Source: Methanomicrobia archaeon | Lineage (GTDB): Archaea; Methanobacteriota_B; Thermococci; Methanofastidiosales; NM3 | Assembly (NCBI GenBank): GCA_030603445.1 | Contig: JAUVXU010000021.1 | Span: 1 to 21,820 of the forward strand | Direction of reading: 5' to 3' | DNA: 21,820 bases | The notes under the pieces: generated by a model | What the model was told of the DNA's origin: nothing | Database searches by the model: none | What the model saw: the letters and a program-made list of their open reading frames with translations, nothing else | Made by a program: the position numbers and the translations under genes | Part shown: positions 3,786 through 20,055 of the stretch, piece after piece | Layout of the letters: each line of letters begins with the position of its first letter | Position numbering within the stretch: position 1 is the stretch's first letter

Positions 3786-4598
3786 TCACATGAGTTTTTT
3801 GCAGCTAGCATTATATTCACATACTTGGGCATACTCGCATCTGTGGCAATGGGGCGTTGTCGGTGCAAATGTTGTGCATTCTTTTATTAGGCCTATATGT
3901 TCCTTAACTATATCCTTATTGTCGGGACTGATTTGAATAGAAAATATCTTTCTGGGTTTAGTATATAGTATCCCTGATAGATGCACTTTTTTTCCAAATC
4001 CCTCGGTTGCAAGAAGAGCATTAATCATTAGAGGCATTATATCTTCTTTTTCTATCCCGTTAGTTGTTGCTGACCCAACCTCAAATTGAATGGGGATGCA
4101 GTAATGGTCCGTGATATGAGCAAGTGGTATCGTGCCTGCTAGCTTGTGCCTGAAGTCCACTATACGCTTCCCAACATGATCTGGCATATAACATGCACGT
4201 ATTGCAAGCTCTTTTCCTGTCATCCCAAAGCACTGCAGGTGCCACTGGCACTTTAGCATTCCTTCATTTAAGTCTCTTGAAAGTTCATTTGCAATGAATT
4301 TTGCGATGTATTCAAAATCTAATTCTGCAATATATTTTGACGTCTTTGATATTGTACCTGCAACTGCCATATCAAGCAGTGATGCATAGACATGATTTAT
4401 GTCACGTTCTTCTTCTATTTTTGCGCACGCATCCTGTTCCTTTGCATAAAACACAATACGTGAGGCATAAGAAAGTTTTTTTAGTATATCTTCTTGTGAG
4501 TAAGATATAGGTTCTTTTCTGATATACTGTAAGTAGTATTTGTAAGGGCAGATTCCAAATATGCGTGCTTGCTGTGCTGTAAGGTACTTGCTACCCAA
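3786..4598 (-). CDS. Cas4-like PD-(D/E)XK superfamily protein, catalytic motifs apparently lost
   Basis: This 270-residue protein has the Cas4/RecB-nuclease layout. An N-terminal cysteine lies in CPYKYYLQY (about residues 17-25) and a C-terminal Cys cluster lies in CHRCEYAQVC (C-x2-C-x5-C, about 251-260), which together would ligate a Fe-S cluster. In Cas4 nucleases the active site is a G-x-[IL]-D strand followed by E-x-K. The corresponding stretches here appear to be GTIPLAH and FEVGS, so the metal-binding Asp and catalytic Lys look absent. The start is TTG at 4598, immediately after the nadC stop TGA (4599-4601) and in the same frame, with GGTGA 4 nt upstream; it is almost surely coupled to nadC. 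No CRISPR array or other cas gene is visible. The fold is fairly secure; loss of activity is inferred from an alignment by eye. Confidence 0.72.
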   Translation of the reverse strand: MGSKYLTAQQARIFGICPYKYYLQYIRKEPISYSQEDILKKLSYASRIVFYAKEQDACAKIEEERDINHVYASLLDMAVAGTISKTSKYIAELDFEYIAKFIANELSRDLNEGMLKCQWHLQCFGMTGKELAIRACYMPDHVGKRIVDFRHKLAGTIPLAHITDHYCIPIQFEVGSATTNGIEKEDIMPLMINALLATEGFGKKVHLSGILYTKPRKIFSIQISPDNKDIVKEHIGLIKECTTFAPTTPHCHRCEYAQVCEYNASCKKLM

Positions 4599-5456: not shown

Positions 5457-7688
5457 TCACTTTACAATGGCCAGTATGTAGACATTATTGTAAGGATTTG
5501 AATGGTCCTCGTATATTACATTAAACTTCGCTGATGAGAAAAACTTGGTCCAATTGATAGGCACTCCAAATGAGCTGTCCTTGTATGAACCAAGCCAACC
5601 TCGTGATGCCATGTTATCTGATATATACACATGCGTTATGCCATAACGATTAGCAAGAGAAAGTGTTAGGTCCATATCCTCTGTTTTATAAAAATCGTAG
5701 ATGTCATCCTGTACCTGAGCAGGAGCTTTTATGTATTCGTTAAAGTCTATATTACGCAAAGGGAACAGGCCCCCAATCAAAGCTCTGCCTGCACAAACAC
5801 CACTAAACATCTGTCCCGTATAATAATCGGCGACTATGAGGTCATTTTGGGTGGAGTTGGCTTTAAACCATACAGCAGCGTTGTAATCTTCGATAAATAC
5901 CCCTGAATTCGTTATCTTAAAATCCATATCATAATCAGGCATGACCGCACCCGATAGGCTAAAGTAACCCAGGCATGCAATAAAGATCATGAAGCCATAT
6001 GCATATGTGGTTTTGTGTTTTCTTATCTCCATTATAAGAATTGCGGCCAGGATCGAGAAAGGTTGTGCAAGAAATATATAAAAGCGGTATCCTTCTAAGG
6101 GGCGAACCGTTGTTTCCCACATAAGGCCATATTCGCGGACAATAGAGAGGATGTTCTCGCTAAACACTTCGTAAAGTAAAAATATGGTCCAAAAAATGAG
6201 GAAAGTCTCGTATCGGTGTTTCAAGATATATTTGCCCACTTTGCCTTTGTATTGGTATATGAAGAGGGTGGGAATGGAGATCAGTGCTGCTATTGCTAAG
6301 ATGTTCTGCCCTGTTAGGTAGGTCCTGATAAGTTCTAATGCCCCCATTGTAGCCGATGTTTTTGTATAAATGTAGACAGACGCCACTAGTATTCCAAATG
6401 AAAATACAATGATAACAGGTGTTAGGTATGGGCTAGTATGCAGTGATTTAGAAAATGCAGCTGCAAGAATGAAGAAAATGAAAATAGTGATGAAAAGCAA
6501 ACCAATGGCTTCCAGGTCACTTGCAAAAGCGCTTTGTATGAATGTGAATGTTTTTGTCCATGCCCCTATATTGCCTGCTTTTGTGGTAAACCAGGTTGCT
6601 ACGCCACTAATTATGATTGCGCATGCTGCAGATACTGCAGTCGCTAAAGCAAACGTTGTCTTTAACCTGAGCAGAGCTATTAAGGAATAGATCAATGCAA
6701 GTATTGCAATAACTGGTATTGTAATGGTCTTGCCCATAAAAATGCCGCATAGTATCGAGAATATCGTTGCTAGGCTTATTATATGCCATGGATTGTAATT
6801 TGAGTGGATGTTGAAGTAGGAAAGCCTATCTACTAACAGGTACCCGAAACCTATAAACCCCATTATCATAAACGGTGCCCCATAAGAGGTAAGATGGGAT
6901 CCGAATGTTTGCAAAAGCGTTGATGTTGTTATTATCCATATCCACCAGTAGAATAGGAAGTTTGGCGCCCACCACCAACTTGAAATGATAAGGCTGATAA
7001 GCACTGCTACCCCAAGGAACTTAAGCTCGTTATGCACTGGCTGCTTGTCGAATTTTCTTGCAATAACATAGAGGGCCATAAGCCCGATTATGATAAAATA
7101 AGATAGGTGCACCATAAAATTTATTCCAAGAAGGATCCCCATCCAAATTGCATTGTTCCGGGAGTAACCATATTTTTGCCGCGATAGATATATCAGAACA
7201 ATTGGGATTACCATGAGCGTGAACACTTGCGGATCCGCAATTGCACTATAAAGTATAAATGATGGGGTTATGGCAAGCATTAACACAGAAAGTCGCGCCA
7301 CGTTGCGGCTGAACCACTCTTTTGCAAGGAAATATAAGGGGATGGGTGTGAATGCCTCGATAAATGGAATTACTCTTGTCATAACGGTCGGCAAGTCTAG
7401 ATTACTAATAGCAGAGATAGCGGCGTAAAACATTGGGGAGAGCGGAGGATACCACAAAGGCACATCACCGTAGGGCAAATACCGGATATCAGGTATTGGC
7501 AATGCATGGTAATCCAAGATGTATTGTGACATACATATCCTATACCATACGTCGCCAAGAAATACTGGAAGGTGGCTATCCATCTCTAATTTTGGCACGA
7601 TGCGAATAAAAACTCCAAACACATAGATTGCAGTTAATAATAAAATGTCGTTGTTTTTTAACAAGGCCACTATTTTATTTGAATTCAT
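5457..7688 (-). CDS. GT-C family membrane glycosyltransferase, STT3/AglB-like
   Basis: This is a 743-residue polytopic protein with roughly 12-13 hydrophobic membrane segments and a soluble C-terminal part from about residue 590. Near the N-terminus, after the first membrane helix, FLGDVWYRICMSQYI (Asp46) and IPDIRYLPYG resemble the first luminal loop of STT3/AglB, where an acidic residue binds metal and the lipid-linked sugar. IADPQVF near residue 151 resembles the later acidic loop motif. The WWDYG motif of true oligosaccharyltransferases is not evident; the equivalent region reads VADYYTGQMFSGVCAGR. The family (lipid-linked-sugar-dependent GT-C) is well supported, but the exact acceptor is unknown. 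The ATG at 7688 has an upstream AAGGGGCG and lies 23 bp after the DUF373-propeller stop, so the two are cotranscribed. Confidence 0.72.
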   Translation of the reverse strand: MNSNKIVALLKNNDILLLTAIYVFGVFIRIVPKLEMDSHLPVFLGDVWYRICMSQYILDYHALPIPDIRYLPYGDVPLWYPPLSPMFYAAISAISNLDLPTVMTRVIPFIEAFTPIPLYFLAKEWFSRNVARLSVLMLAITPSFILYSAIADPQVFTLMVIPIVLIYLSRQKYGYSRNNAIWMGILLGINFMVHLSYFIIIGLMALYVIARKFDKQPVHNELKFLGVAVLISLIISSWWWAPNFLFYWWIWIITTSTLLQTFGSHLTSYGAPFMIMGFIGFGYLLVDRLSYFNIHSNYNPWHIISLATIFSILCGIFMGKTITIPVIAILALIYSLIALLRLKTTFALATAVSAACAIIISGVATWFTTKAGNIGAWTKTFTFIQSAFASDLEAIGLLFITIFIFFILAAAFSKSLHTSPYLTPVIIVFSFGILVASVYIYTKTSATMGALELIRTYLTGQNILAIAALISIPTLFIYQYKGKVGKYILKHRYETFLIFWTIFLLYEVFSENILSIVREYGLMWETTVRPLEGYRFYIFLAQPFSILAAILIMEIRKHKTTYAYGFMIFIACLGYFSLSGAVMPDYDMDFKITNSGVFIEDYNAAVWFKANSTQNDLIVADYYTGQMFSGVCAGRALIGGLFPLRNIDFNEYIKAPAQVQDDIYDFYKTEDMDLTLSLANRYGITHVYISDNMASRGWLGSYKDSSFGVPINWTKFFSSAKFNVIYEDHSNPYNNVYILAIVK

Positions 7689-7711: not shown

Positions 7712-9856
7712 TTATTCTGTCCAAATATTCTCTATATCTATGCCGTATATGTCAGGATTATCCTCTGCGATGCCAGTATGTATTCCATCAAGGTCATTAC
7801 GCCAGTCCACCCAACAGAGATAAGAACCACATACAAAGGGATTTTCTTGATCTGATATGGCGTCTGTAACTTGGAGCGTGGCACTAGTATCCCTATCGAA
7901 TATATAGATATCTTTGTTGCCATTACGATCGTCTTCCCAGATAACATAATTTTCATATATTACTGGATTTACTTGATTAGAGGGGTCCTTTGTTATTTGA
8001 AGTTCTTCTTTTGTGGACATATCATAAAGGTATATGTCCCAATTTCCATTTCTGTTATCTTCCCATACTATGATATTACCATATATTGAAGGATTGAATT
8101 TGATGGATCTGCCGCTAGTTACTGCATGTTCTATACCTGTCCCGACATTATAACTGAATATATTGAATTCCCCGAATCTATTGTCCAACCATACGATAGT
8201 ATTGCCATATATTTTGGGTGTGGTCTGAAATGGTTGCAGTGCCGGGTCGTCAATTGTTATTCTTTTCTCATCTTTGTTTATTATATTATAGAAGTATATG
8301 TCAGAATTTTCATTCCTCTCGTCTTCCCAAACGATTCTGTTTTCATATATGTCAGGATTGGACTGATTAAATTCGTTATCTGTTACTTGTGTCAAAACGT
8401 TTGTGGACATATCATAAAGATATATATCCCACTCTCCATTTCTATTATCCTGCCAAACGATTTTGTCCCCCCATGTTCTGGGATTTTTCTGATCATTTGT
8501 GTCCTTGGCTATACTTACTTCGTTCCCGCTATCAAGATATTTTAAATATATATCCCAATTTCCATCTCTATTATCCTGCCAAACACAGTATGCTAGTCCG
8601 TCCGAATTGATCCCCATCACAGGATTGAATTGATCTGCAAGATTTTTGGTAATAGAGAACGAGGTCTCTGTATCAGTTACCTCATTCGTACTCTCCATAG
8701 AATATAGCACTATTGATGTAGTTATGAATCCCACTATAAAGAGCGTTATAATGCCCTTCCTGCTAAGTGACACTGCTCTTTTTTTCTTTGATGTGGAGCT
8801 TAATTTAGATTTTTGGATGAAGGCTACACCAATGCCAATTATTGCAAAAAAGGCTATGATAAATACAGAGAATACGGCTTCGTTTCGAGTTATCTCGTTT
8901 TGTGTGTAAGATGTGTATTGGTAGAAGTTTCCAAAAACGGCACAGGCAAGCATGAATATGATAAGGGAGCTCCATATATGCTTGGCCTTGTTTGTGTATG
9001 CACTGACGACATTGCCTGCTAACGCCGCGATTATGCCTAGATATAATAGGGGAAATGAACCATCAAAAAATACTGTAAAAACATACTTTGCAGATTCCCA
9101 GTTAAGGTAAGGGACCATTTCCCACCTTATATTCATAAATCCGTTGTATCCCCCATACGCCGCTATAACTATTGCAATAGAATATGCTATGATTTTCACT
9201 CTTCGCGGCGTCATCTTGTCCCTTAAATAATCATCAACACCAAATCCTTTGGCAAATAAGTAGCTGCCAACGATGGAAAATGTGGCAAACCACCCATATT
9301 TCGTCAGGTCCGGAAAAAGATATGTGAGGGCATAAATGATAATAATGATTCCTGGAAGGCCCAGGAATAAACCAGACACTTTCTTGTCCTCCATCATCCG
9401 TTTTAAATACCTGTGCAAAATGAAGTAAGTATCTTCTAGACTCTCGCTTTGTTGCACTGTTAGTCTGTCGATTGATATAATATTTACTTTGGACTGAAGT
9501 ATGGGCAATACATTTTCATCTTCCTTGCCATCACTTACCAGAATTGCAGAATCAATATTAAAAGTTTCTTTTATGACATCAAATTGTTTGATAAGCTCAA
9601 TATCTGATTTTATTCCAACAGATTGGTCTCCCGTAATACAAGCGACATAAGCATCCTTTCCTTCTTCTTTTAGTGTTTCATAGATTTTTACACATTGGAA
9701 TAAAACGTTTGTGTCAGATTCCGTGGGGTCAACTACCCCTAATTTTAAAGCTGTTTCAAGAAGAAATTCTTTGCCGAGAATAGGTCCCTTGATGCCAGTT
9801 TTTTCTCCTATGTCGTTGTCTCTATCGACTCCAAGAACTAATATTTTTTCTGCCAC
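7712..9856 (-). CDS. DUF373 membrane protein fused to a seven-blade beta-propeller
   Basis: The protein has 714 residues in two parts. Residues 1 to about 370 match the archaeal DUF373 family: a cytosolic start (KILVLGVDRDNDIGEKTGI), an ACITGD / LVSDGKEDE segment, then about seven or eight membrane helices. Another helix (KGIITLFIVGFITTSIVLYS) leads to residues about 405-714, where seven repeats of about 42 residues carry NP-x-IY-x-x-x-IVW-x-D-x-RNGNWDIYLYD, the blade pattern of TolB-like propellers. The topology implied is a propeller on the outside of the cell. DUF373 proteins usually end after the membrane part (from memory, about 370 residues), so the fusion is unusual. The start is GTG at 9856 with SD GGAGATG upstream. 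It is followed by the glycosyltransferase gene in the same unit, suggesting a cell-surface role. Confidence 0.85.
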   Translation of the reverse strand: MAEKILVLGVDRDNDIGEKTGIKGPILGKEFLLETALKLGVVDPTESDTNVLFQCVKIYETLKEEGKDAYVACITGDQSVGIKSDIELIKQFDVIKETFNIDSAILVSDGKEDENVLPILQSKVNIISIDRLTVQQSESLEDTYFILHRYLKRMMEDKKVSGLFLGLPGIIIIIYALTYLFPDLTKYGWFATFSIVGSYLFAKGFGVDDYLRDKMTPRRVKIIAYSIAIVIAAYGGYNGFMNIRWEMVPYLNWESAKYVFTVFFDGSFPLLYLGIIAALAGNVVSAYTNKAKHIWSSLIIFMLACAVFGNFYQYTSYTQNEITRNEAVFSVFIIAFFAIIGIGVAFIQKSKLSSTSKKKRAVSLSRKGIITLFIVGFITTSIVLYSMESTNEVTDTETSFSITKNLADQFNPVMGINSDGLAYCVWQDNRDGNWDIYLKYLDSGNEVSIAKDTNDQKNPRTWGDKIVWQDNRNGEWDIYLYDMSTNVLTQVTDNEFNQSNPDIYENRIVWEDERNENSDIYFYNIINKDEKRITIDDPALQPFQTTPKIYGNTIVWLDNRFGEFNIFSYNVGTGIEHAVTSGRSIKFNPSIYGNIIVWEDNRNGNWDIYLYDMSTKEELQITKDPSNQVNPVIYENYVIWEDDRNGNKDIYIFDRDTSATLQVTDAISDQENPFVCGSYLCWVDWRNDLDGIHTGIAEDNPDIYGIDIENIWTE

Positions 9857-10344: not shown

Positions 10345-11235
10345 TTAGAGGAATGTTGATTCTTGCAGTATTTTGAATTCCTCTGTGGACAGCTTCTCAC
10401 CACTAACGAACTTGTCATACAAATCCTTCGCTTGTAGGTTTATCTGGTCCATTACTACTTTGTTCTCTTGTTCTCTTTCCTTTATGCGCTTGGCGTGTTT
10501 CTCAGTTTTTCTCTCTGCGATATTATTTCGGGATATATTAAGACTGTCCCTTACTTCACGCAACTGAGCATAAGTGTTGTTTAGCACTGCTTTTTTTGAA
10601 AGAAATTCTTGATGTGCTTTATCGGCTGATTTTTTTGTTTCAGAAGCTCTTTGCGAGAAGTACGTTACGCGTTCGTGGAATTTTGCAGATTCTTGTGAAA
10701 ATTCAACGACTTTCTCATGAAGTTGGTCTATTTCTTTTCTTATAGATGACATCTTTTCGCGCAAGGACCTGATTTTATCCTTTACTTCTGTTGAAAGTTT
10801 TGTTGCTTCAAGATCTTTTTGTAGTTGGGAAATCTGAACAATGATTTTGTTCTCTTCTTTTATTTGGAGTACTGATGTCTCAAGCTTCCATTCCATCTCA
10901 TCTATCTTTTTTTGTAAATAAAATGGATTAGACGCAGAAGAATCCCCATCGCTACCAAGCTCTTTTTTTATCGCTTTTAGCTCATCTTTTAGCTGGGAGA
11001 GTATTTTTCTCTTATCATCACGTTGTTGTTTGTGTTCTGACACCATTTTATTGGCGTTGTCTCTTTCTTTTTTTGACTCTTTGAGCTGTCCAAGTAGTTC
11101 TTTGAATAAAGCGTTGTTCTCATCTCTTTTTTTGATACTCTCATCTATTTCATTTTTTGTAGATGCACAAGTATCCCTTAGCTCCTGATAGTTCTTTTTT
11201 ATAGTTCCTAGTTCTTTGAATAAGTCGTCTTCCAA
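10345..11235 (-). CDS. COG1340-type archaeal coiled-coil protein
   Basis: About 296 residues, nearly all charged heptad-like coiled coil (runs such as KKRDENNALFKELLGQLKES and REKMSSIRKEIDQLHEKV). It ends in a short conserved tail, AKDLYDKFVSGEKLSTEEF, which is characteristic of a widespread archaeal coiled-coil family of unknown function (COG1340). It has no membrane segment, signal peptide or enzymatic motif. Two TTG starts are possible: TTG at 11241 sits only 1 nt after GGAGG, whereas TTG at 11235 is 7 nt away, so 11235 is preferred. TATA-like sequences lie at 11263-11269 and 11276-11283. It is divergent from the DHH gene. A function in chromosome or RNA handling would be speculation. Confidence 0.85.
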   Translation of the reverse strand: MEDDLFKELGTIKKNYQELRDTCASTKNEIDESIKKRDENNALFKELLGQLKESKKERDNANKMVSEHKQQRDDKRKILSQLKDELKAIKKELGSDGDSSASNPFYLQKKIDEMEWKLETSVLQIKEENKIIVQISQLQKDLEATKLSTEVKDKIRSLREKMSSIRKEIDQLHEKVVEFSQESAKFHERVTYFSQRASETKKSADKAHQEFLSKKAVLNNTYAQLREVRDSLNISRNNIAERKTEKHAKRIKEREQENKVVMDQINLQAKDLYDKFVSGEKLSTEEFKILQESTFL

Positions 11236-11339
11236 ATTCAATCCTCCGTGAATTATTCATACTTTATACCAACCCTTTTTAAATCTTACCTTTTAAAATC
11301 AGTCTCTTGCATATTCATATGCATCTAAAATAGTTAGTT

Positions 11340-11380: not shown

Positions 11381-12784
11381 ATGTATCTCATCTTGGGAAT
11401 AGGTATCGTAGGTCATGCTATAGCTATGAATATAAAAGGACGAGCTGAGGAGCTTGTTCTTGTAGAAAAGGACCCTAAGAAAGTAAAGGGGCTTATAAAG
11501 AATGGATTTACAGCAATTGAGGGAGATTTTCTTCTACCTTCTAAAAAGATACGCCGTTTTATGGAACAGGCAAGCATTATTTTTATCATGACATCAAACA
11601 GTGATGTTAATAAAAAAGTTTTGAAATATGTACATGGACTTAATCCCTATGCTTTTGTCATAATGCGAACTACTAACCCTGCCGATGCCAATAAACTCAA
11701 AGGTAATGGGGTAGGGGCAGTAATAGTTCCACAAGTCGCTATAGTGGAACAGATCATGAATGAATTAGGAACGTTTGAACACATAGATCGCGTGAGAACC
11801 CTTAAGAGGGGATTAAAACAGGGAGAACGCTTGGGCATTATCGTTCATGATAATCCTGATCCGGATGCTATTGCTTCAGCATTGGCGCTCCAGACAATTG
11901 CAGAAAAACAGGGAGTAAGCTCCGATATATTGTATGGGGGAAATATAGGGCATCAACAAAACAAGGTGTTTGTAAACCTTTTAGGAATAAACCTTTTGCG
12001 TATCGATGATTACAATAAATACCTTCTTAGGGGATATGACCGTCTGGCATTTGTTGACTTGGGGTCAGATGCAAATACCAGCATACTGCCTTTAGATACA
12101 ACGCCTGATATTATCATAGATCATCATCCTAAAACCATCGATTATTCACTTTCAGTTGAAGATATACGCAGCCATATTGGGGCCGTATCCACGATGTTAA
12201 CAGAATACCTCATTGATTTTGGGTGTGATGTCACATCGAGAATGGCAACAGCACTTCTCTATGGGATAATGACAGATACGGATAACTTCAGAAGACGCAT
12301 ATCAAGAGAAGACATCGAGGCAGTTGCCTGGCTGCAAGATAAGGCAGATCAGGAGATGTTAAATAAGATAGTTAATCAAACAATTTCCCCCGATGTGCTG
12401 GATGTTATAGGAAAGGCCATACTGGGGCGTGATGTTCTAAATGGATATGTTATATCCAATGTTGGGTATATCTCCAATAGGGACTCTCTTCCTCAGGCAG
12501 CAGATTTCCTTTTGAGTTTAGAGGGTGCTACTACGGTGCTTGTTTTTGGCATGTTAAATGAGTCTCTCTACATATCTGCTCGCACAAAAGACATAAAGCT
12601 CAATCTTGGACAAACGATGGAAAAGGCGTTTGGAACGATTGGTTCTGCAGGCGGCCATGTGTCTTCTGCTGGTGCGAGGATCCCTCTTGGAATATTTGGC
12701 ATGATAGATGATAAGGAGATACTAAAGAATCTTGCCGGAGAGGCAATAAAAAAGATGTTCTTAAAAGCAGTGGATATGTATTAA
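11381..12784 (+). CDS. TrkA_N-DHH-DHHA1 phosphoesterase
   Basis: The 467-residue protein starts with an RCK/TrkA_N-like Rossmann domain (residues 1 to about 130; MYLILGIGIVGHAIA is the nucleotide-binding loop). The middle is a DHH phosphoesterase domain and the end a DHHA1 domain. Metal ligands are visible: HDNPDPDAIAS (about 156-166), VDLGSD, IDHH at about 246-249 and a later TDTDNF. GGHVSSAGAR near residue 426 is the DHHA1 substrate-binding motif. Related NrnA/GdpP enzymes cleave nanoRNA, pAp or c-di-AMP; the RCK-like domain suggests regulation by a nucleotide or link to potassium balance, which is inference. The start is fixed by an in-frame TAG 6 nt upstream of the ATG. Confidence 0.9.
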   Translation: MYLILGIGIVGHAIAMNIKGRAEELVLVEKDPKKVKGLIKNGFTAIEGDFLLPSKKIRRFMEQASIIFIMTSNSDVNKKVLKYVHGLNPYAFVIMRTTNPADANKLKGNGVGAVIVPQVAIVEQIMNELGTFEHIDRVRTLKRGLKQGERLGIIVHDNPDPDAIASALALQTIAEKQGVSSDILYGGNIGHQQNKVFVNLLGINLLRIDDYNKYLLRGYDRLAFVDLGSDANTSILPLDTTPDIIIDHHPKTIDYSLSVEDIRSHIGAVSTMLTEYLIDFGCDVTSRMATALLYGIMTDTDNFRRRISREDIEAVAWLQDKADQEMLNKIVNQTISPDVLDVIGKAILGRDVLNGYVISNVGYISNRDSLPQAADFLLSLEGATTVLVFGMLNESLYISARTKDIKLNLGQTMEKAFGTIGSAGGHVSSAGARIPLGIFGMIDDKEILKNLAGEAIKKMFLKAVDMY

Positions 12785-14679: not shown

Positions 14680-16533
14680 ATGAACAAGAGAGTTATTATC
14701 ATCTTTTTATTATTGCTAAGTTTATCCTATATGCCTTGTGACGTGGCATCCCAACCTTTTGAGAATACGGTTGTGGTACATGCACCTGCTGTGGCAATGG
14801 AGAATGGGGTGTATGTTGGCGTCATTAGTGAGATGGAAGTTAGCACTTCTCCTGGGGATGGATCTATTTTTGTAGAGACCTGGCCTTTATCAGAGATAGA
14901 CGTACAGGCTTCTGCACGTATTGCTGTGGCTGTGGCATCTGAGTTTACTGGAAAGGATATTAATTTACTAAACTATTATTACTCTATAAAATCAAATGCG
15001 TCTATCATAGGTGGGCCATCAGCTGGCGCAATATTAACAGTTGCAACAGTGTCTAGCATAAATGGATGGGACGTGGATCCAGAAGTAATGATGACTGGCA
15101 TGATAAACCCTGACGGAACTATCGGTCCTGTCGGTGGAATCTACGAGAAGGCCGAGGCAGCAAGTAATTTTGGCATAAAGAAATTTCTTATTCCTGAGGG
15201 GCAGGCCGTAGTGCAGCATGAGGATGAGGAGATCGATCTTCGCATCTATGCGCCAGAGATGTGGGGGATGGAAGTAATAGAGGTCTTTGGCATAGAAGAT
15301 GCCATATTTGAATTTACAGGATATGAATTTGAATATAGTGAATATAGCGGCAATATCGAGATTGATACATCCTTTTGCAAATCATTTGTAGACGAGGAGC
15401 TAACATGCACAGAGCAGATGGGATATGAAGTAAGCGCGCTGCTCTTTGATTCAAATATAGACGCAGATGTTAGTGAGGGGTTAAACGATTACCTTATATC
15501 AGCAAATAAACGTTTGCAGGATGCAAAGGATTCAATAGAGCAGGAACAGTATTACACAGCGCTTTCTTTCTTGTTCCAGACTAGAATATCATTTACTTAT
15601 GTTATGTATTCATTAGAGTATTTGGAGAGTGATACCAGGGAAGAAACACTGTCCATGTTACTTGGAAATGTCCAAAAATACCTTGATGAGGTGTCAGGAG
15701 AGGTTAAGGACATGGCTGGTGAGATCCATGGCTTTTCCATGCTTGAAGCATTTTCCGCTGCACAGGAACGCTCGTTTGAATCCCAAAAATACCTTGATGA
15801 AGCCAGGAAACAGATCGTATGGAACAACCCAGGAAACGCTACCTACAATACTGCATTTGCATACGAACGTGCACGCACAGCGAAATTTTGGTTAAATATG
15901 GCTGAGACGTTCTATGAAGGCGATCTTATTGGGATAGACCAATTGCGCACGGATGCAGAGACTATAATCAATGATGCAAATCTTACTTTGATATATGCTA
16001 GCCAGCTCAATAGTTCTAGTTCATGGCTTAGCGGGGCGCAGGAGCTTTTGGAAAGATCACAATACGAGTATGCAAATGGAGATTACGCAGCTGCCTTGTT
16101 TAATGCCATCGAGAGCAAGACGCGTTCGTCAGTTGCAATTCAACTGTTTTCTTGTGGGGAAGATTGTATTGGGAGTAGTATGGAGCGCGCTCGCGAAAGT
16201 GCAGCTGCAGCTATTGAGCGACAGAAATCATATGGGATAACACCTGTGCTTTCTATAGCTTATTTTGAGTTTGCTTCCACTTTTGAAGAGGTGGAAGGAT
16301 ATGACCAGGCAATAATTTACTATAAATATTCTGAAGGTATAGCAAACGCCTTCAAATATCTCATGGCAGGCCTGGCAAATGATCAATATGCTTCCATAAA
16401 TATTGGCGAGGATAAGGGCATTTTGTATTGGCCGATGTCAGGGTACGTTCTTATTGGAATATTATTTGGATTTGCCATATCCATGCTAGTAACACGTAAT
16501 TTAGAAAAGCGCAAGGTTTATAAAGAAAAATAA
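14680..16533 (+). CDS. Secreted, membrane-anchored S16 (Lon-type) serine protease
   Basis: The 617-residue protein has four parts. A signal peptide (about residues 1-24, VIIIFLLLLSLSYM core) is followed by a Lon-type proteolytic domain (about 30-200). The catalytic serine is in GGPSAGA (Ser114) and the catalytic lysine in GGIYEKAEAA (Lys157), the S16 Ser-Lys dyad. A long helical region (about 220-580) and one C-terminal membrane helix (YVLIGILFGFAISMLV) with a basic tail complete it. There is no AAA ATPase domain, unlike LonA/LonB, so it must act without its own unfoldase, on the outer face of the membrane. It matches the archaeal S16-type family COG1750. The ATG at 14680 has GAGGG 5 nt upstream. 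The tRNA promoter lies in its last codons. Confidence 0.88.
   Translation: MNKRVIIIFLLLLSLSYMPCDVASQPFENTVVVHAPAVAMENGVYVGVISEMEVSTSPGDGSIFVETWPLSEIDVQASARIAVAVASEFTGKDINLLNYYYSIKSNASIIGGPSAGAILTVATVSSINGWDVDPEVMMTGMINPDGTIGPVGGIYEKAEAASNFGIKKFLIPEGQAVVQHEDEEIDLRIYAPEMWGMEVIEVFGIEDAIFEFTGYEFEYSEYSGNIEIDTSFCKSFVDEELTCTEQMGYEVSALLFDSNIDADVSEGLNDYLISANKRLQDAKDSIEQEQYYTALSFLFQTRISFTYVMYSLEYLESDTREETLSMLLGNVQKYLDEVSGEVKDMAGEIHGFSMLEAFSAAQERSFESQKYLDEARKQIVWNNPGNATYNTAFAYERARTAKFWLNMAETFYEGDLIGIDQLRTDAETIINDANLTLIYASQLNSSSSWLSGAQELLERSQYEYANGDYAAALFNAIESKTRSSVAIQLFSCGEDCIGSSMERARESAAAAIERQKSYGITPVLSIAYFEFASTFEEVEGYDQAIIYYKYSEGIANAFKYLMAGLANDQYASINIGEDKGILYWPMSGYVLIGILFGFAISMLVTRNLEKRKVYKEK
16517..16525 (+). 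promoter_or_regulatory. TATA box for tRNA-Val, inside the protease 3' end
   Basis: TTTATAAAG spans the last coding codons of the S16 protease and sits 27-35 nt before the first base of the tRNA, the spacing of a normal archaeal tRNA promoter. Confidence 0.55.
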
Positions 16534-16551: not shown

Positions 16552-16625
16552 GGGCCCGTGGTCTAGTTGGTTATGACGTCGCCTTTACGAGGCGAAGATC
16601 ATGAGTTCGAATCTCGTCGGGCCCA
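16552..16625 (+). tRNA. tRNA-Val(UAC)
   Basis: A 74-nt cloverleaf can be folded by eye. The acceptor stem GGGCCCG (16552-16558) pairs fully with CGGGCCC (16618-16624) and is followed by discriminator A (16625). The D arm carries AGTTGG. The anticodon stem is TCGCC/GGCGA (16579-16583 and 16591-16595) around loop TTTACGA, with anticodon TAC at 16586-16588, reading GUA valine codons. The T arm is ATGAG-TTCGAAT-CTCGT. CCA is not encoded. A tyrosine recombinase remnant begins 32 bp downstream, so the gene's 3' end is the probable attachment site of a former element. Confidence 0.95.
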
Positions 16626-16656
16626 CTCATTTTTTCTTCAATATTATTTGGGGTAG

Positions 16657-19101: not shown

Positions 19102-20007
19102 TTATTGTTTGAAGTGATATTCGCCATCTAATGCTATTAAGTAGTTCACTAGGGCAGAACATATGACCAATATGAACTTTGCATCTGCATATAATAAATC
19201 GGGTGATACCTGTCCTTCATGTCTTATTGCTTCCTCATCTGATGCATAGCCGTATAAATTCCCAATTGCTTGTTTGAATGATTTATGGAGTTTTTTTCCA
19301 TATTTAGTTTGCAAGGTCCCCATAATTGATTTTAAAGCGTCACTTAATTCAGCTTGTTTTGTATCTTTGCCAGTTATTCTTTTGCATATGCCTACAACTG
19401 CATTAATCGATTCATCAATGGATTGCCGATAATTTTCAACAGGGTCACCATTTCGTTTGCTCAATTGTGTAACAGCTGCGGATAAGTGCATTTCTGCTGT
19501 TTGGTATCCTGAGTCGATAGCTGATACTATACTATCAATTTCTTCTTGACTGGTCATTTCTAAAAATTTACCATTTACAAATCCATATATGCTATTTTCT
19601 TCTTTAAGACAGATATTGATATCAGTTGTAAAACACTTCATCTTTTCTTTTAAATTGTTTGATACGTCATATGATAATTCTATAATATCAAATATTTCAT
19701 GCCATTTGCACTTAAAATAGAATCCAACAATGCGTTCAACTTGAAAAGATATATTATACTCTTTTATAGTTTCTTTCATTATTTTATCTATTATAACCGA
19801 TGTTAATTCTGACATATAAGTATTATAATTATAATTTATAGCCAATTTACGATGAGTATTCTGATCAAAAAAATAATTACAATAACAATTCCATAAACGA
19901 TTTCTCAAAGCACTAGATATCCCCTTTTTGAAAGATTTTCCCACTATCTTTAATCCCATTCGTTGAGAAAATAAATTTGTAATAGGTTTATTTGTTAAAT
20001 ATGCCAT
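19102..20007 (-). CDS. AbiJ-like abortive-infection protein
   Basis: About 301 residues from ATG 20007. The N-terminus (ITNLFSQRMGLK..., LRNRLWNCYCNYFFD) matches the FS-x-R-x-G ... LRN-x-LWN pattern of the AbiJ N-terminal domain. The C-terminal third (YRQSIDESINAVVGICKRITGK, FKQAIGNLYGYASDEEAIRHEG, AKFILVICSALVNYLI) matches the associated abortive-infection C-terminal/HEPN-like domain, with the RH pair in AIRHEG. Proteins of this kind are thought to be phage-triggered toxins, possibly RNases. An upstream in-frame ATG at 20049 adds 14 residues, but a TATA box at about 20027-20037 lies 25 nt before 20007, favouring a leaderless shorter form. It lies within the tRNA-Val-linked accessory region, as expected for defence cargo. 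Confidence 0.78.
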   Translation of the reverse strand: MAYLTNKPITNLFSQRMGLKIVGKSFKKGISSALRNRLWNCYCNYFFDQNTHRKLAINYNYNTYMSELTSVIIDKIMKETIKEYNISFQVERIVGFYFKCKWHEIFDIIELSYDVSNNLKEKMKCFTTDINICLKEENSIYGFVNGKFLEMTSQEEIDSIVSAIDSGYQTAEMHLSAAVTQLSKRNGDPVENYRQSIDESINAVVGICKRITGKDTKQAELSDALKSIMGTLQTKYGKKLHKSFKQAIGNLYGYASDEEAIRHEGQVSPDLLYADAKFILVICSALVNYLIALDGEYHFKQ

Positions 20008-20055
20008 GATAAAATTATAACATTGAGATAATATAATTATTATGCCCATAACTAA

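Follow-up and report, generated by a model that had tools for sequence, protein, structure and literature searches.

A DUF373 membrane protein fused to a seven-blade beta-propeller in a single archaeal family

The window analysed here, a stretch of 21,820 nucleotides, carries on its minus strand (7712..9856) a gene for a protein of 714 amino acids, in which the archaeal membrane domain DUF373 (PF04123) continues through an additional transmembrane helix (TM7, or helix 7) into a seven-blade beta-propeller of the TIGR04275 family. It is a new architecture made from two known families, and it is confined to one small family of uncultured archaea related to methanogens, here designated f1, of a Methanofastidiosia-like order. 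Our preferred reading, to which we give about an even chance on the basis of sequence comparison, is that the propeller acts as a tethered binding or docking ectodomain rather than as a tightly coupled transmembrane sensor.

Organisation of the fused protein

The gene starts with GTG at position 9856, stops at 7712-7714 and forms a single frame of 714 codons. In profile searches, PF04123 matched residues 4-341 (E 1.7e-87, 294.5 bits, with a Pfam gathering score of 28.3 bits) and was covered from profile position 1 to 330 out of 335, i.e. as a full domain. TIGR04275 (beta_prop_Msarc) matched in seven stretches from approximately residue 399 to the end (E 4.2e-88, 288.8 bits, above the NCBIfam cut-off of 85 bits). 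An AlphaFold2 model built on an alignment of 57 relatives (mean pLDDT 83.9) comprises a Rossmann-like N-terminal domain, six helices, helix 7 and seven four-stranded blades; its pTM of 0.51 makes the relative placement of the domains unreliable.

The N-terminal part (residues 1-157; 9386..9856, minus strand, as are all parts of the gene) is a cytosolic alpha/beta domain modelled with a four-stranded Rossmann-like sheet (pLDDT 88.7). Residues D11, D13, D15, D48, D85, D113 and E141 do not vary in any of 57 sequences, the fused copies among them; in alignments of this domain N50 is also invariant, and D109 invariant or nearly so. The invariant residues follow the C-terminal ends of strands or start helices, and the acidic ones cluster at one edge of the domain. 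Rossmannoid enzymes keep their active sites at these same places, at C-terminal strand ends and helix starts, and from the model it is reasonable to regard the DUF373 N-terminal domain as a putative metal-dependent enzyme. No solved structure clearly related to it was detected; the matches were generic Rossmann-like ones (best Z 6.9, Foldseek E of at least 2e-3), and an assignment to a family by fold was rejected as the matches were merely generic.

Six transmembrane helices follow the soluble domain, as in DUF373 members (residues 158-352; 8801..9385), placed by hydropathy, the model and the PF04123 match to residue 341. Beyond that match lie a strongly basic loop (residues 353-365; 8762..8800), cytosolic by the positive-inside rule, and then helix 7 (residues ~366-388; 8693..8761), poorly conserved in sequence. 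The initial annotation had proposed an extra membrane helix between DUF373 and the propeller, and both hydropathy and the model place one here. A short acidic linker (residues 389-398; 8663..8692) leads into the propeller (residues 399-714; 7715..8662). The fused protein thus shares with standalone DUF373 the whole profile, the six helices, the invariant cytosolic residues, the single copy per genome and a DUF7121 gene upstream, whereas standalone members end shortly after helix 6, at ~340-420 aa, and the fused form adds the basic loop, helix 7 and the 316-residue propeller.

With the N-terminal domain taken as cytosolic, the basic loops are those that follow helices 2, 4 and 6 (5, 2 and 8 K/R, respectively), and those after helices 1, 3, 5 and 7 are neutral or acidic. 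Residues 348-367, before TM7, hold 8 K/R and 0 D/E, and an acidic linker follows TM7; in the other fused species the character of both the basic stretch and the linker is kept, but not their sequence. This positive-inside pattern, together with the signal-peptide-like N-termini of all the propeller relatives checked, strongly indicates a propeller outside the cell, so that the blades, first annotated as external, are most likely to be so, as far as prediction goes. It has been considered that the propeller might instead be an intracellular docking platform, with helix 7 not spanning the membrane or with an inverted topology. Many intracellular propellers match the fold about equally well; nevertheless, the hydrophobicity of helix 7, the charge pattern and the secreted relatives of the propeller make this very improbable.

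The seven blades noted initially were recovered in the predicted model as seven four-stranded blades, with block pLDDT values mostly of 85-97 over residues ~399-714 and with solved seven-bladed propellers matching residues 397-714 at Z 22-27 over 270-299 residues. The best structural matches are propellers of S9 peptidases (e.g. 8wt1 and 4hxg) and the trilobed protease of P. furiosus (2gop), at Z 25-27.5 over 270-288 residues. Membership in the S9 prolyl oligopeptidases was rejected, since in a Pfam search the alpha/beta-hydrolase peptidase domain was absent from the fused chain. TolB of the Tol-Pal system also appears among the top Foldseek matches, but its sequence match is weak (TIGR02800, 70 bits against an equivalog cut-off of 343), and the propeller is not a periplasmic Tol-Pal protein. 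The closest known counterparts are the TIGR04275 surface propellers abundant in Methanosarcina, which share the same repeat in seven copies; identity to secreted Methanosarcina proteins is 36-44%. Those checked begin with a signal-peptide-like segment, where the fused protein has a polytopic membrane domain instead. The genome to which the window belongs encodes a second TIGR04275 protein on another contig (C41, L066:6052-8514); it is 820 aa long, has no Pfam match, starts with a signal-peptide-like segment, contains a Thr/Pro-rich linker and is anchored in the membrane at its C-terminus.

Distribution and origin of the fusion

The fused architecture recurs in three further species of f1 (G001, G002 and G004; public assemblies RXIG01000002 of archaeon NM3, DSAJ01000200 and JAFGGT010000058) with 61-63% identity along the full length. 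In a fourth (G003, JAHKLV010000043) the gene is split inside the repeats by contig ends: one contig (C219) stops 432 residues into the fused protein, and another (C27) opens with 268 propeller residues followed by the same downstream genes. All five available genomes of the family therefore carry the fused gene, in the same gene order. To judge from the names of relatives (Candidatus Methanofastidiosia, Theionarchaea and Thermococci), the order to which f1 belongs probably goes with the Methanofastidiosales. The initial annotation had named an artefact at the junction as a point to be checked, and an assembly or gene-calling error joining two genes, for which one might cite the halves of G003 on different contigs, has a negligible probability: the frame is single and free of stops in four species, whose public assemblies are independent of one another, and the break in G003 lies inside the repeats, with the second contig running on into the same downstream genes. 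As the full-length architecture recurs in three species and is split in a fourth, the fusion is neither chance nor a junction error.

Each f1 genome has a single copy of DUF373, the fused one, which implies that the fused protein replaces the standalone form and must still do its core job. DUF373 itself occurs in ~93-97% of the archaeal genomes searched, usually in one copy. In the phylum of f1 it was found in 110 of 115 genomes and is fused only in the five of f1; once weak partial hits on other membrane proteins are set aside, the remaining genomes have frames of at most 436 aa. Thermoproteota possess it in 122 of 131 genomes, and their full-match frames are all of at most 447 aa, none of them fused. 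It was detected in 382 of 392 genomes of Halobacteriota and in 368 of 389 of Thermoplasmatota, with no DUF373-propeller fusion among the best ~150 matches in each of these two phyla. Among 80 named loci, 4 are fused and the other 76 end after helix 6. Additional Pfam domains on DUF373 members amounted to single and weak matches only. Apparent fusions in eight genomes of Thermoplasmatota and Halobacteriota (G304, G531, G662, G664, G766, G769, G778 and G830) were rejected as upstream read-through of the open frame, as were those in loci L118 and L150; a C-terminal domain is absent from all of them. That DUF373 normally stands alone, as initially stated, was borne out across the matches listed in four phyla and the 76 named loci; among these, DUF373 was joined to a propeller nowhere outside f1.

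In a tree inferred from the DUF373 part by maximum likelihood, the fused proteins form one clade (support 100/99) inside the order, sister to family f2, in which DUF373 is standalone. A single fused clade within the order points to one gain followed by vertical descent.

Conservation, gene neighbourhood and role of the propeller

The propeller is under purifying selection, to judge from a dN/dS of 0.15 between G001 and G002 and of 0.20 between G001 and G004, a pair in which synonymous sites are nearly saturated. Mean pairwise identity is 69% for the N-terminal domain, 67% for helices 1-6 and 77% for blade 4; conservation is lowest in helix 7 and the linker, with 30% pairwise identity and 9% invariant positions. 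The best-conserved patch of the propeller covers blade 4 and the first part of blade 5 (residues 541-588; 8093..8236, minus strand) with the pattern QPFQT..TI.WLDNRFGEFNIFSY..GRSIKF. Because it both departs from the repeat consensus and is better conserved than any other part of the fused protein, it is a likely candidate for a binding site.

Genes around the fusion keep a common order throughout f1: S12-S7-EF2, followed on the opposite strand by PDDEXK, NadC, a GT-C-like gene, the fused DUF373 and DUF7121, and then TrkA_N-DHH. The GT-C-like gene (5457..7688, minus strand; PMT_2, E 6.8e-9) encodes a glycosyltransferase-like polytopic membrane protein of 743 aa. Directly upstream of the fused gene lies the gene of the DUF7121 coiled-coil protein (10345..11241, minus strand; Pfam match), and divergent to it that of a TrkA_N-DHH-DHHA1 protein (11381..12784, plus strand; Pfam), which is found beside DUF7121-DUF373 in related families as well. 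DUF7121 and TrkA_N-DHH flank the standalone DUF373 in families f3 and f4. In Methanofastidiosia relatives, DUF7121 immediately precedes DUF373 and shares its strand; a DUF7121-type gene, recognised by coiled-coil similarity, has this position in L103, L113, L140 (Pyrodictiaceae) and L145 (Methanomicrobiales). The TrkA_N-DHH-DHHA1 gene is also kept divergent to the pair in L103.

Other genes of the window include a weakly matching PDDEXK/Cas4-like nuclease directly after NadC (3786-4598), which is 31-33% identical between species, as against 55-85% for its neighbours. A 617-aa protein (14680-16533) with a match to the Lon_C protease domain at residues 105-174 and a weak one to HEPN adjoins a tRNA-Val gene (16552-16626). 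A protein with AbiJ N-terminal domain 4 (19102-20049; E 4.3e-21), possibly a phage-defence gene, lies in a stretch of 31% G+C, compared with ~40% elsewhere.

According to the scenario that we favour, an ordinary single-copy DUF373 gained helix 7 and a propeller from the secreted TIGR04275 family in the common ancestor of f1. The propeller would be tethered outside the cell and would bind or dock through the conserved patch of blades 4 and 5, which may fasten the DUF373 complex to a partner outside the cell, such as a surface protein, a glycan or the neighbouring GT-C-like protein. The core function of DUF373 would stay as in other archaea, with the putative active site intact. We favour a tether because helix 7 and the linker are far less alike between species than blade 4, and better conservation would be expected of a helix that passes a signal.

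The principal alternative is a transmembrane sensor, in which the propeller would bind an extracellular ligand and, by way of helix 7, switch the activity of the cytosolic domain of DUF373. In its favour, an external part is joined through membrane helices to a cytosolic domain that carries the invariant acidic cluster, all within one chain, and the propeller has one highly conserved patch. Nevertheless, helix 7 with the linker is the least conserved part, the chain has no known signalling domain in Pfam and NCBIfam profiles, and all other archaea seen do without a propeller. We regard a sensor as rather unlikely, though the low conservation of helix 7 in sequence is still compatible with a mechanical transfer of the signal. 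The initial suggestion of a cytosolic domain linked through membrane helices to an external sensor or scaffold accordingly stands as regards the arrangement, whereas its sensor part is disfavoured by the unconserved helix 7.

About as unlikely is that the propeller presents or binds a glycan or an acceptor protein for surface glycosylation by the GT-C-like protein. The gene of the latter comes directly after the fused gene in each of the five species, 23 bases downstream in the window and with an overlap in G004, and is adjacent to DUF373 only in f1; the homologues in f2 and f3 are shorter (~530-547 aa, lacking ~200 middle residues) and located elsewhere in the genome, ~115 kb from DUF373 in G006. 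The adjacency is, however, seen in one family only, in which gene order is conserved in general; the GT-C-like protein has no match in NCBIfam, neither sequence nor profile searches found a relative in the PDB, and no homologue was found in f4. Neither a sensor nor a glycosylation partner is mutually exclusive with docking, and both are possible alongside it.

Implications for DUF373

No function of DUF373 was given in the literature found, and searches under PF04123, TIGR04275 or COG2237 returned nothing; two other literature matches were rejected as they concern DUF3733 or DUF3730. In Nitrososphaera viennensis, the DUF373 protein NVIE_017130 co-migrates with ammonia monooxygenase in native gels (PMC10030591).

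It had been suggested at the outset that the fusion offers a clue to DUF373. This expectation was not supported, given a single gain in one family and a nearly unconserved helix 7 and linker; the unconserved connection points to an added tethered domain rather than to a sensor coupled to the cytosolic part. Better leads to the role of DUF373 are the invariant acidic cluster of the cytosolic domain and the DUF7121 gene upstream in several lineages, and the DUF7121-DUF373 adjacency, seen in two phyla, is more informative on DUF373 than the fusion.

A more far-reaching idea, which we consider quite improbable, is that DUF373 is a nearly universal archaeal membrane enzyme with a cytosolic active site under regulation from outside, and that the propeller of f1 is a fused version of an external partner which works in trans elsewhere. 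If this were true, f1 would be a Rosetta stone for the role of DUF373 at the cell surface. As a conserved natural variant with an external domain, the fused protein offers a handle on the topology and localisation of DUF373 and for partner fishing, and it shows that the C-terminus of DUF373 tolerates a large and, by prediction, external addition.
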